Under the pieces are notes generated by a model. It saw nothing but the letters and a program-made list of their open reading frames with translations. It did no database searches and was not told the origin of the DNA. A stretch of DNA of 64,000 nt from an uncultured Pelagibacteraceae bacterium. GTDB lineage: Bacteria; Pseudomonadota; Alphaproteobacteria; Pelagibacterales; Pelagibacteraceae. The stretch covers positions 1-64,000 of the forward strand of contig CACKMG010000002.1 in NCBI GenBank assembly GCA_902601235.1. The letters are read 5' to 3'. The position numbers and the translations under genes are program-made. Shown one piece after another: positions 13,909-20,154 of this stretch. The first letter of the stretch is position 1. Each line of letters begins with the position of its first letter.

Positions 13909-14096
13909 GGTTTAGGTGGTATAAATACTTATTCTAAGATTAATTATTATAAAATTTATTAATTTGTGATAAACTTCTAAATATAGTTTAAAATGAGAAC
14001 TTTTATCAGTCCGATTCGATCATGTTTTAGTCTATTTTTGTTCTTTAGGACTAACAATATCTGGTAGGTAAAAAAAAAGATATACCAAAGATAGAA

Positions 14097-16576: not shown

Positions 16577-16987
16577 ATGTTCTTCAAAAATAAAGAAAAT
16601 GATATAAATGGAAATTTTATTAAAGTTGCAGCATTGTTGATTCACGCAGCAAAAATTGATCAAGATTACTCAGAAAATGAAGAAAAAATTATTATACAAG
16701 CACTTTTAGAATTTGGTATTGACCAAGACAATATTCAACAAATTATTTCTGAAGGAAAAAAAATAGAATCAAACTCGAATCAAATTTTAGAGTTTACAAA
16801 AGAAGTAAAGAAAATGAACAACGATAAAAAAATAAAGATTGTTGAAACTTTGTGGAGAATTATTTATTCAAATAAAGAAGCTGATGTTTATGAAGCAAGC
16901 TTAATGAGACGACTCGCCGGATTATTATATATTGACAGTAAAGTAATGGGGGATATTAAGAAGAAAATAATTAGAGAAATTAAATAA
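16577..16987 (+). CDS. TerB-like domain protein
   Basis: The 136-residue all-helical protein begins with a hydrophobic helix followed by acidic D/E residues ([16 protein letters not shown]), the pattern of the TerB tellurite-resistance/COG4103-like family. Its biochemical role is unknown in general, and tellurite resistance should not be assumed. It sits between the helicase and fdxA and overlaps the fdxA start by one base. In other alphaproteobacteria, as I recall, an S4-domain RNA-binding protein often sits in this slot; no S4 motif is visible here. Confidence 0.75.
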
Positions 16988-17313
16988 TGACTTATATTGT
17001 TAATGAGAAATGCATCAAATGTAAATTAATGGATTGTGTAGAAGTTTGTCCTGTGGATTGTTTCTATGAAGGAAAAAATATGCTTGTAATTAAACCAGAT
17101 GAGTGTATAGATTGTGGCGTTTGCGAGCCAGAATGTCCTGTCGATGCTATTAAAGCTGATACTGAGCCTGGCAGTGAAAAATGGTTAGAAATAAATAAGC
17201 AATATTCAGAAATCTGGCCTAATATAAGTGAAAAAAAAGATCCCCCTGAGGATCATCAAAGATATAAAGATGAGCAAGATAAGTTTGAGAAATATTTTAA
17301 AGAAAACATTTAA
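16987..17313 (+). CDS. fdxA: 7Fe ferredoxin, FdxA type
   Basis: The 108-residue cytosolic electron carrier has the seven-iron pattern: C-x7-C...CP near the N-terminus ([17 protein letters not shown]) for the 3Fe-4S and part of the 4Fe-4S ligands, then [12 protein letters not shown]. The acidic C-terminal tail is typical of the FdxA group. It is conserved next to carD in alphaproteobacteria, as here. Its 3' end overlaps the likely carD start by 44 bases in another frame. Confidence 0.93.
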
Positions 17314-18121
17314 GAAAAAAATCAAAAAGTCAGTAAAAAAAAAAGTTTCTAAAAAAAAAATTATTAAAGTAAAAAAAGTAAAAAAAAAATCAAAAAAAAT
17401 TATTAAATCAAAAATCAAAGAGGCCCCTAAAAAAGATAGAAAAAAAATAGAACAAAAAAACGATAATTTAAGAATTCCTAAAAGTAATGAAATAAAACCT
17501 GAAATCAAAAAAGTAAAAAAACAAAACACAGAAAAAAGAGAATATAAAGTCAAAGACTATGTGGTTTACCCAAAACATGGGGTTGGTCAAATTTCTGAAT
17601 TTAAAAAAATTAGTATCGGTGGAATAGATGTAGAAACCTATGTAATAAAGTTTGAAAAAGATAAAGCTAACGGGATGGTCCCAGTAAATAAACAATCTCA
17701 TCTTCGTCCTTTGGCTACAATTAACCAGGTTAATAAATGTATTTCTATTTTAAAAAGTAAACCAAAAATTAAAAGATCAATGTGGAGTAGAAGAGCTCAA
17801 GAATATGAAGCTAAAATTTCATCTGGTAAAATTTATGAACTGGCTGAAGTTGTAAGAGACTTGAATAAAGGTGATGACCTAATGGTAGATCAATCCTACA
17901 GTGAAAGACAACTTTTTGAAAAAGCCTATGAAAGAATATTATCTGAATTTCAAATTATATTAAATTTCTCTCTTGAAGATACTCAAAAAAAATTAGATAA
18001 AGCCCTAAAAAGAAATTTAGAAAACCAATCTAAATCTAAATCAGAGGTGACAAAAACTTCTAGTGCTTCAGTTTCGGAAGATGAACCGGTATCTGATAAT
18101 GATGAGACTTTAGAGGAATAA
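17270..18121 (+). CDS. CarD-family transcription regulator with lysine-rich N-terminal extension
   Basis: The CarD/TRCF RNA-polymerase-interacting domain begins at [16 protein letters not shown] and continues through a helical DNA-binding part ([13 protein letters not shown]). CarD proteins stabilise the open complex at promoters. The frame also carries about 90 residues of almost pure Lys with Ile, Val and Ser before the domain, and an acidic Ser/Asp/Glu tail. The track starts at a GTG (17228); I prefer the ATG at 17270, still 44 bases inside fdxA. No other ATG precedes the CarD domain, so a non-ATG start that shortens the extension is possible. The gene ends at a strong terminator. Confidence 0.88.
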
Positions 18122-18122
18122 A

Positions 18123-18161
18123 AAAACGCCTCTCACACGTTATCGTTATGAGAAGCGTTTT
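18123..18161. terminator. Bidirectional rho-independent terminator
   Basis: AAAACGCCTCTCA pairs with TGAGAAGCGTTTT over 13 positions with one C-A mismatch. A U-run follows on either strand. It lies two bases after the carD stop and 20 bases after the stop of the convergent mini-gene, so it can end both transcripts. Confidence 0.85.
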
Positions 18162-18181
18162 TAATAAAGAATACTAAGTGA

Positions 18182-18259
18182 TTATCTTCTTCTTCTTTTC
18201 TTAGCTTTTTTCTTAGCTTTTTTCTTAGCCTTCTTTGCTTTTTTTCTTCTTTTAGCCAT
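18182..18259 (-). CDS. 25-residue Lys/Arg/Ala peptide
   Basis: This ORF is far too short for the track. The peptide uses only four amino acids: one Met, five Ala, thirteen Lys and six Arg. It begins MAKRRKKAKK, continues with repeated AKKK units and ends in RRRR. Alanines at positions 8, 11, 15 and 19 would line one face of a helix. Everything expected of a real gene surrounds it: Shine-Dalgarno GGGAG, a TTGACA promoter, a 21-bp inverted repeat in the leader and a terminator. I cannot name a family; composition recalls histone-H1-like tails and tiny basic ribosomal proteins such as bTHX, without sequence identity. A nucleic-acid-binding role is inference. Confidence 0.72.
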   Translation of the reverse strand: MAKRRKKAKKAKKKAKKKAKKRRRR

Positions 18260-18280
18260 CTTTAGCTCCCTTTTAAGTTA

Positions 18281-18301
18281 AACGAATCAAATTGATTCGT
18301 T
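18281..18301 (-). promoter_or_regulatory. Perfect 10-bp inverted repeat in the leader of the Lys/Arg/Ala mini-gene
   Basis: AACGAATCAA and TTGATTCGTT flank a single central base. It lies between the predicted transcription start and the Shine-Dalgarno of the mini-gene. A one-base centre is too tight to fold fully as RNA without opening the inner pairs, so a protein operator is as likely as a 5' protective hairpin. Confidence 0.6.
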
Positions 18302-18310
18302 ATTACACTA

Positions 18311-18339
18311 TTTTTATTTTTTTATAATAGTTATGTCAA
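18311..18339 (-). promoter_or_regulatory. Promoter of the Lys/Arg/Ala mini-gene
   Basis: On the minus strand a perfect TTGACA (18334-18339) is followed after 17 bases by TAAAAA. Long A/T tracts upstream of the -35 resemble an UP element. A consensus -35 stands out in this A+T-rich sequence. Confidence 0.55.
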
Positions 18340-18453: not shown

Positions 18454-20154
18454 TTAATAAAGTTTTTCCAAATTATTTTTATATTTTTCTAAAATTTTAT
18501 TTCTTTTTAGTTTTAAAGTTGGAGTTAGCATTCCATTTTCAATTGTAAATTCTTCTTTAATTAAGATAAATTTTTTAACTTTTTCTGCTAAAGATAAACT
18601 TTTATTTAAATTTTCTAAATAAAATTCAATTTCTTTTTTATTTTCATCACTTTCGCTTACAATTAATGCAACTAGATAAGTTTTTTTATCCCCATAAACA
18701 AAACTTTGTTTAATATTTTCATTTAGACATAACAAATTTTCAATTTTAGATGGCGAAATATTATCACCGCCTAAATTTACTATAATTTCTTTTTTCCTAT
18801 CTGTTATTTTTAGATTTCCGTTTTTTGTTATTTCTCCTATATCACCGGTGTGTAACCAGCCATTTTTTATCGTACTTTCTGTTTCTTTTTTCATATTCCA
18901 ATAACCAAGCATAACATTTTCACCCTTAACTAAAATTTCACCATCATCAGCAATTCTTACTTGATTTGTTTTAAAAGGTGGGCCAACAGTCTCTATTTCA
19001 ATTTTTCCTGGAATATTACAGCTAACAACTGGTGAAGTTTCTGTTAATCCATATCCTTGTAAAGTTGGCAAACCAATAGAGTTCAAAAATTCACCTATTT
19101 CCTTATCTAGAGCTCCACCCCCAGAAACGAAGGCTTTTAATTTACCACCAAATTGATTTTTGATCTTTTTCCTAACTAATAATTCACAAAAAAAATTAAT
19201 CAATTTTTGCTTAAAATTAAGTTTCTCATTATTCAAAATTTTTGTTCCTAATAAAATGGTAGATTCAATCAAATTTTTTTTAAAACCTTTTTGTTTAGAA
19301 AAATTGATTGAAATTTTGTTATATAAATTTTGATAAAATCTTGGAACTGCTGTCATAATTGTTGGTTTTGCAATTAACATATTAGGCAATAATTTTTCCA
19401 AACTTTCAGCATAAAAAACTTTTGCTCCAAGGGTGATTTGTACGTATTGAACTGTATGCTCATATGAGTGTGATAATGGAAGCCAAGTTAAAAAAACAGG
19501 TGGTTCGTTTCTAGTTAATGAATCTAAAATCTCTTTTGCACCCTCGCAATTTGATAAAATTCCTCCATGGCTAAGCATTACACCTTTAGGATTTCCAGTA
19601 GTACCTGATGTATAAATAATACAAGCGAGATCTTTTCTTGTTATTTCATTATTGTAATAATCTAAAATATATGATGCTTCTTGATAGATACTTTTTTCTA
19701 AAATTTTTCTGATATTTTCAATATTCTGATTAAAATTTTCAAATGAAATAATTTTAGTTTCATTTGAAATAAATTTCTCAATTTTTTTATACTGGATATG
19801 ATTTGAAACTATGCATATCTTGGGTTTACAATCATTTATTATATACTTATAGTCATCTTCTGAATACGTTGTAAATAATGGAACTGTTACCCCTCCTGCA
19901 TTCATAATTGCTAAATCTGCAATGAGCCATTCAGGTCGATTTTCAGATAACAATACGCATCTATCTCCCTTAGATAATCTTTCTGATAAATACTCAGAAA
20001 ATAAACAAATATTATTTTTTACTTGTTCCCATGTTAAAAAATCACCATTACTTATTTTTAACCATTTTAAAAATGGCTGATTTTTTATTTCTTTTTTTTC
20101 TTCATACTTTCTAAAAAAAAGCTCTACCAGACTATTAATCTTATTTAATTCCAT
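18454..20154 (-). CDS. Long-chain fatty-acid-CoA ligase (AMP-forming)
   Basis: The 566-residue adenylate-forming enzyme activates fatty acids with ATP and CoA. Motifs: P-loop-like YTSGTTGNPKGVMLSHGG near residue 183, the GYGLTETSPVV adenine-binding motif, and TGDIGEITKNGNLKITDRKKE near the C-terminal hinge. It resembles the FadD/FAA1-like group that lacks a membrane anchor. It is a single gene between the mini-gene region and tRNA-Leu. The chain length of its substrate cannot be read. Confidence 0.9.
   Translation of the reverse strand: MELNKINSLVELFFRKYEEKKEIKNQPFLKWLKISNGDFLTWEQVKNNICLFSEYLSERLSKGDRCVLLSENRPEWLIADLAIMNAGGVTVPLFTTYSEDDYKYIINDCKPKICIVSNHIQYKKIEKFISNETKIISFENFNQNIENIRKILEKSIYQEASYILDYYNNEITRKDLACIIYTSGTTGNPKGVMLSHGGILSNCEGAKEILDSLTRNEPPVFLTWLPLSHSYEHTVQYVQITLGAKVFYAESLEKLLPNMLIAKPTIMTAVPRFYQNLYNKISINFSKQKGFKKNLIESTILLGTKILNNEKLNFKQKLINFFCELLVRKKIKNQFGGKLKAFVSGGGALDKEIGEFLNSIGLPTLQGYGLTETSPVVSCNIPGKIEIETVGPPFKTNQVRIADDGEILVKGENVMLGYWNMKKETESTIKNGWLHTGDIGEITKNGNLKITDRKKEIIVNLGGDNISPSKIENLLCLNENIKQSFVYGDKKTYLVALIVSESDENKKEIEFYLENLNKSLSLAEKVKKFILIKEEFTIENGMLTPTLKLKRNKILEKYKNNLEKLY

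Follow-up and report, generated by a model that had tools for sequence, protein, structure and literature searches.

The window, as we call the whole stretch of DNA analysed in the present study, comprises 64,000 nucleotides of an uncultured Pelagibacteraceae genome and carries on its minus strand a gene for a very small basic peptide, flanked by carD and a fadD-like gene (Table 1). The peptide consists of 13 lysines, six arginines, five alanines and one methionine, giving 19 basic residues, so that the window copy contains only lysine, arginine and alanine after the initial methionine and no proline. Among the ATG-initiated open reading frames (ORFs) of 18–101 aa in the 64-kb window it is the sole case with at least 70% lysine plus arginine, and no such ORF arose in 20 Markov simulations of the window. 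An earlier description of this DNA, made from its letters alone (hereafter the sequence-only reading), had reported the 25-residue ORF with its 19 basic residues, a GGGAG Shine-Dalgarno sequence, a TTGACA element preceded by A/T-rich DNA, a 10-bp inverted repeat and a terminator, all of which were located on the minus strand, as was its plausible −10 element, which is present but weak. The unit as a whole folds better than all 200 of its shuffled versions (z −4.85), and an Rfam search over the window returned tRNAs only.

Table 1 Features of the peptide locus, with positions numbered along the window
Feature	Position	Strand	Remarks
carD (CarD-type transcription factor, lysine-rich N-terminal extension)	17228..18121	+	Convergent; constant synteny marker
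Bidirectional intrinsic terminator	18121..18163 (approx.)		Strong hairpin, T-runs on both sides; common to convergent carD
Peptide ORF	18182..18259	−	25 aa, MAKRRKKAKKAKKKAKKKAKKRRRR, plus stop; basic, H1-tail-like; frame conserved
Shine-Dalgarno GGGAG	18266..18270	−	Just 5′ of ATG; sequence
Leader hairpin	18281..18301	−	Perfect 10-bp inverted repeat (18281..18290 / 18292..18301), 1-nt centre; predicted mRNA 5′ end
Second, inverted CGAATCA	18283..18289	+	Sequence, window leader
CGAATCA (reverse complement TGATTCG)	18293..18299	−	GANTC site, ~+6 from predicted start; matches extended GcrA motif
−10-like TAAAAA	18311..18316	−	17 bp after −35; predicted position
−35 TTGACA	18334..18339	−	Sequence
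fadD-like AMP-forming acyl-CoA ligase	18454..20154	−	Upstream neighbour

Conservation and coding evidence

Below, the family refers to the Pelagibacteraceae, to which the window belongs, and the sister family is another family of the same order. A DNA search with the unit gave matches in 135 of 147 genomes of the family (E up to 0.001); because the weakest of these are chance hits to A/T-rich DNA, we preferred a reading of the loci themselves to this count. The peptide ORF was found in all genera among those loci read in which carD and fadD are both retained, with one copy frameshifted, and in 28 of 29 loci of the window's genus for which carD was the only anchor. Its place is between carD and fadD in the family and next to carD in the sister family; nearly all SAR11 examined carry one such very small Lys/Arg/Ala peptide gene (19–91 aa). 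The whole unit, comprising ORF, promoter, leader and terminator, is kept across the order: the Shine-Dalgarno sequence is (A)GGGAG in nearly all relatives and GGGGGGAG or GGGAGGAG in the sister family, and 81 of 83 relatives have a hairpin with a T-run 3′ of the ORF. The recurrence that the sequence-only reading had proposed as a check, namely the same ORF with synonymous changes and the same promoter and repeat beside carD, was thus found in other SAR11 genomes.

Among copies whose proteins are identical or almost so, 22 columns vary: 18 of them fall at third codon positions (binomial P = 4e-6 under an even spread), and the remaining four are exchanges between Ala and Pro or between Lys and Arg; this tally was made separately for each group of such proteins, so as not to mix differently gapped ones. 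Peptide length in the family ranges from 19 to 58 aa through in-frame insertion of AKK, TKK and KPA-like units, with most copies in the window's genus having 21–35 residues, and despite these changes the MAK, MPK or MAT start and the basic C-terminal end persist. Acidic residues are absent from all 83 peptide copies of the family. The refuting condition set by the sequence-only reading, an RNA conserved without its frame, did not hold: the frame is kept with synonymous and in-frame changes. The ORF is thus a genuine, conserved protein-coding gene, and its translation is almost certain. In one locus (L045; G006:C5:40207-43407, ~1480–1880) the peptide gene is frameshifted by one base at a homopolymer near its 3′ end; its promoter, leader hairpin and terminator are intact, and the frameshift is probably an assembly error.

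The peptide gene was not found downstream of carD in 40 loci from other Alphaproteobacteria. When 76 genomes of the class were searched at the protein level nothing matched, the sensitivity of that search to such a composition not being established. At the carD locus the gene is thus confined to the order in our sample; its restriction to the order as a whole is likely, though it could lie elsewhere in other genomes. Searches of Pfam, NCBIfam and the PDB with the peptide gave no match, and those with a long orthologue gave one insignificant ribosomal match only; filtering for low complexity and composition suppresses such sequences, which makes these null results uninformative. The literature, the supplementary tables of PMC2704228 and PMC5069720 aside, yielded no earlier description of the gene or published data on it, and it is apparently undescribed. 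Such a gene is easily missed, since its shortness and low complexity put it out of reach of gene finders, family models and trypsin-based proteomics.

Promoter, CGAATCA site and leader hairpin

Motif evidence was drawn from 83 leaders fetched without use of the motif, either through carD or because the complete unit was similar; to avoid circularity, no locus retrieved by a CGAATCA-bearing pattern was used, nor any tally that included such loci. The −35 sequence TTGAC was present in 81 of the 83 relatives, the other two leaders being truncated at contig ends. CGAATC occurs in every leader and CGAATCA in 82 of them. In all 81 leaders with enough sequence, the distance from TTGAC to CGAATC is 41 ± 1 bp (s.d. 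0.7), whereas that from CGAATC to the ATG spans a range of 24 bp (s.d. 6). The same TTGAC/CGAATCA module, spacing included, is found in the sister family. A search for the spaced module in 12 complete or near-complete genomes recovered the peptide locus in 11, together with one further site in one genome, and in 150 genomes of the phylum it gave, outside the window's genome, two matches that look like chance occurrences in GC-rich DNA. The second, inverted copy of the motif is kept in most of the window's genus, reads GATTC in the sister family and is lost in several other genera. The sequence-only reading had correctly seen a perfect inverted repeat here; it had overlooked that the repeat contains an invariant GANTC (TGATTCG) site phased to the promoter.

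A further CGAATCA heptamer lies at position 16776 of the window, within a terB-like coding region, and a further GcrA-type heptamer, CGATTCG, at 14012, which together illustrate the rarity of the motif across 64 kb. Leaders of one genus (g9; L047, L049, L051, L054 and L068–L070) carry between the −35 and −10 a second element, (A)CGAATTMG, which resembles CGAATCA but has no GANTC.

GcrA activates transcription in a methylation-dependent way, binding both sigma-70 and GANTC sites that are methylated. For methylated promoters under GcrA activation an extended GANTC motif, TGATTCG, has been proposed (PMC7987155), and this extended form (TGATTCG / YGAKTCK) is present here at a conserved sigma-70-type promoter. 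GcrA (PF07750) was found in 15 of 16 genomes tested, the sole absence being the window genome (G000), which is 62.5% complete, and the CcrM-type RAMA domain (PF18755) was found in all 16. GANTC sites are almost fully methylated genome-wide in cultured Pelagibacter (PMC9516812). Counting against GcrA control, GcrA of Brevundimonas showed no preference for the extended motif and few likely GcrA targets were reported in P. ubique (PMC7987155); a search of the literature gave no example of a working GcrA position just downstream of the start. The SAR11 promoter is like the GcrA/CcrM-regulated sigma-70 promoters of Caulobacter in its extended TGATTCG GANTC site and in the occurrence of both regulators in the order, but differs from them in the predicted ~+6 position of the site, in having a tiny basic peptide as its target and in belonging to a lineage without CtrA, as reported for P. 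ubique (PMC2877005). The promoter is strongly suggestive of methylation-dependent cell-cycle control, and we consider the chances that it is under the control of GcrA and CcrM in particular to be about even.

The site coincides with the leader hairpin, and a tentative alternative is that CGAATCA acts only as RNA, forming one arm of a stabilising or protein-binding 5′ hairpin rather than methylated DNA, a reading with which any peptide function would be compatible. A hairpin touching the CGAATCA region is predicted in all 83 leaders (mean −8.2 kcal/mol), at the 5′ end near the predicted start, and this would fit an RNA element. Its 3′ arm is usually GATTCG in the window's genus and there provides the second GANTC site; other genera have GATTTG, still pairing via G-U, or an entirely different arm, for example TTAAGTGAT, which pairs with sequence at and just inside CGAATCA. 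Were pairing the only requirement, the 5′ arm should drift along with the 3′ arm, yet CGAATC is invariant, is spaced to the −35 and not to the ATG, and belongs to a heptamer, CGAATCA, that reads on the opposite strand exactly as the published TGATTCG motif of GcrA (PMC7987155). An invariant 5′ arm facing a drifting 3′ arm that keeps pairing therefore points to sequence-specific recognition of CGAATCA in addition to the hairpin, and not to pairing alone. DNA site and RNA hairpin both appear to be under selection; CcrM/GcrA is a candidate recogniser, of which the pattern is no proof. That the unit is instead a conserved small regulatory RNA with an incidental ORF, as its compactness, its own promoter, two hairpins and terminator might suggest, is highly improbable given the third-position bias, the in-frame insertions and deletions, and the start, Shine-Dalgarno sequence and protein ends conserved across two families; with the reading frame itself conserved, we rejected this identity.

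Longer orthologues and proposed function

In the sister family the same slot and strand next to carD holds a longer protein, MEELKVIFAKARKKAKKKAAPKKKRKAAKRKPAKKK..., of 40–91 aa with AAPKKK/KPAKKK repeats characteristic of histone H1 tails. The two families agree in position, strand, promoter, motif, spacing, hairpin and Shine-Dalgarno sequence, so that the link between them does not rest on a low-complexity protein alone. Sister-family and genus g12 proteins contain AAPKKK, KPAAKK and KPAKKK motifs, one g12 copy reading MAKKRKKAAKKKVAKKPAKRKVAKKKPAAKKRKPAAKKK...; both groups have the acid-free, low-complexity Lys/Ala/Pro-rich composition, proline included, in the sister family from beyond the first few residues. 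The number of short basic repeats varies between relatives, within the family as well as in the sister family. AlphaFold2 modelled the long form (pLDDT 66) as a 17-residue N-terminal helix followed by a low-confidence remainder, which is probably disordered. By its sequence the SAR11 peptide belongs in kind with the histone H1-tail-like proteins, as a tail alone. The sequence-only reading had known of no named family and had overlooked the longer orthologues that tie the peptide to this kind; the nucleic-acid-binding role it had put forward gains support from the composition and from the H1-tail-like orthologues of the sister family and g12, and the abundance it had also suggested is an inference.

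Among known proteins, the H1-like KPAA C-terminal tails of AlgP and PhaF from Pseudomonas are a close likeness, since the sister-family orthologues likewise have Lys/Ala/Pro repeats in variable number, and tails of this composition are DNA-binding in AlgP and probably so in PhaF (PMC9239181). In AlgP, however, a 124-aa putative alpha-helical N-terminal domain precedes the tail (PMC9239181), and the SAR11 peptide, reduced in the family to about 25 residues, is almost free of proline. AlgP proper was rejected as an identity, the window protein having 25 aa in all and the sister-family form only a 17-residue helix before its repeats. The chlamydial proteins Hc1 and Hc2 are also small and lysine-rich, but are far longer, and their DNA binding is only predicted for the SAR11 peptide, which has no Pfam match; Hc2 varies in length by lysine-rich pentamers (165–237 aa; PMC2848022). 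A small RNA and the developmental cycle govern HctA (PMC8343073), whereas the SAR11 peptide gene has a GANTC promoter.

Taken together, our overall explanation, to which we assign a probability of roughly one half, is that the gene encodes a minimal H1-tail-like, polyanion-binding and probably nucleoid peptide expressed from a GcrA/CcrM-type promoter. GcrA would recruit or stabilise sigma-70 polymerase at the methylated TGATTCG/CGAATCA site just downstream of the start, and promoter output would follow the methylation state of that site and hence the passage of the replication fork. The gene would be transcribed alone from its sigma-70-type promoter into a short mRNA that is protected by a hairpin at its 5′ end, has a good Shine-Dalgarno sequence and ends at the terminator common to carD. 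The acid-free Lys/Arg/Ala peptide would bind polyanions by charge, mainly chromosomal DNA, which it may neutralise and help to compact alongside HU. Binding of nucleic acid or another polyanion is very probable from the composition; nucleoid DNA as the main target is somewhat favoured. HU (hupA) is among the strongest in a main-text table of active SAR11 promoters (PMC5069720), and the peptide gene is absent from that table, which covers annotated genes only.

Two other targets would suit such a peptide. The eukaryotic ribosomal protein eL41 has about 25 residues, nearly all basic, with a fixed length and place in the ribosome, and the window peptide resembles it in size and composition. A stand-alone ribosomal peptide of this type, or an RNA chaperone, would also accord with the strong Shine-Dalgarno sequence and leader hairpin, as befits a highly made protein, and with the arginine-rich C-terminus, which suits RNA. 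Lengths of 19–91 aa, variable repeats and prolines in the orthologues nevertheless fit a bulk polycation better and disfavour a fixed ribosomal place, and a GcrA-type site would be unusual at a ribosomal gene, making ribosome or RNA an unlikely main target. eL41 itself was rejected on the lengths of the orthologues and on finding no PDB match up to E = 10, in a search that is weak for such a composition. AlgP, with its H1-like KPAA-repeat tail, associates with polyphosphate granules in Pseudomonas (PMC9239181), and the AAPKKK/KPAKKK repeats of the sister family recall that tail; the peptide has no AlgP-like N-terminal domain, and no linkage to polyphosphate genes was seen, so condensation of polyphosphate or another such polyanion is very unlikely.

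SAR11 are among the most numerous cell groups in the ocean, and to our knowledge little is known of how they pack their chromosome or run a cell cycle without CtrA. An order-wide basic peptide with a conserved promoter offers a concrete candidate in both respects; it may rank among the smallest known nucleoid proteins, and its gene is a candidate conserved GcrA target in SAR11. SAR11 may time the production of a DNA-packing peptide to DNA replication. A bolder proposal, that in the absence of CtrA they couple a protamine-sized, histone-tail-like peptide of as few as 19 residues to replication through a GcrA/CcrM clock, as a counterpart of S-phase histone supply, is doubtful at present.

Lysine-rich sequence was also observed around carD itself. 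The extension of the window's CarD places about 100 residues ahead of the CarD domain, and carD open frames of ~270–325 aa in the genus suggest that the extension is general there. At a locus from another alphaproteobacterium (L123), a Lys/Ala/Pro-rich ORF lies between a ferredoxin gene and carD.
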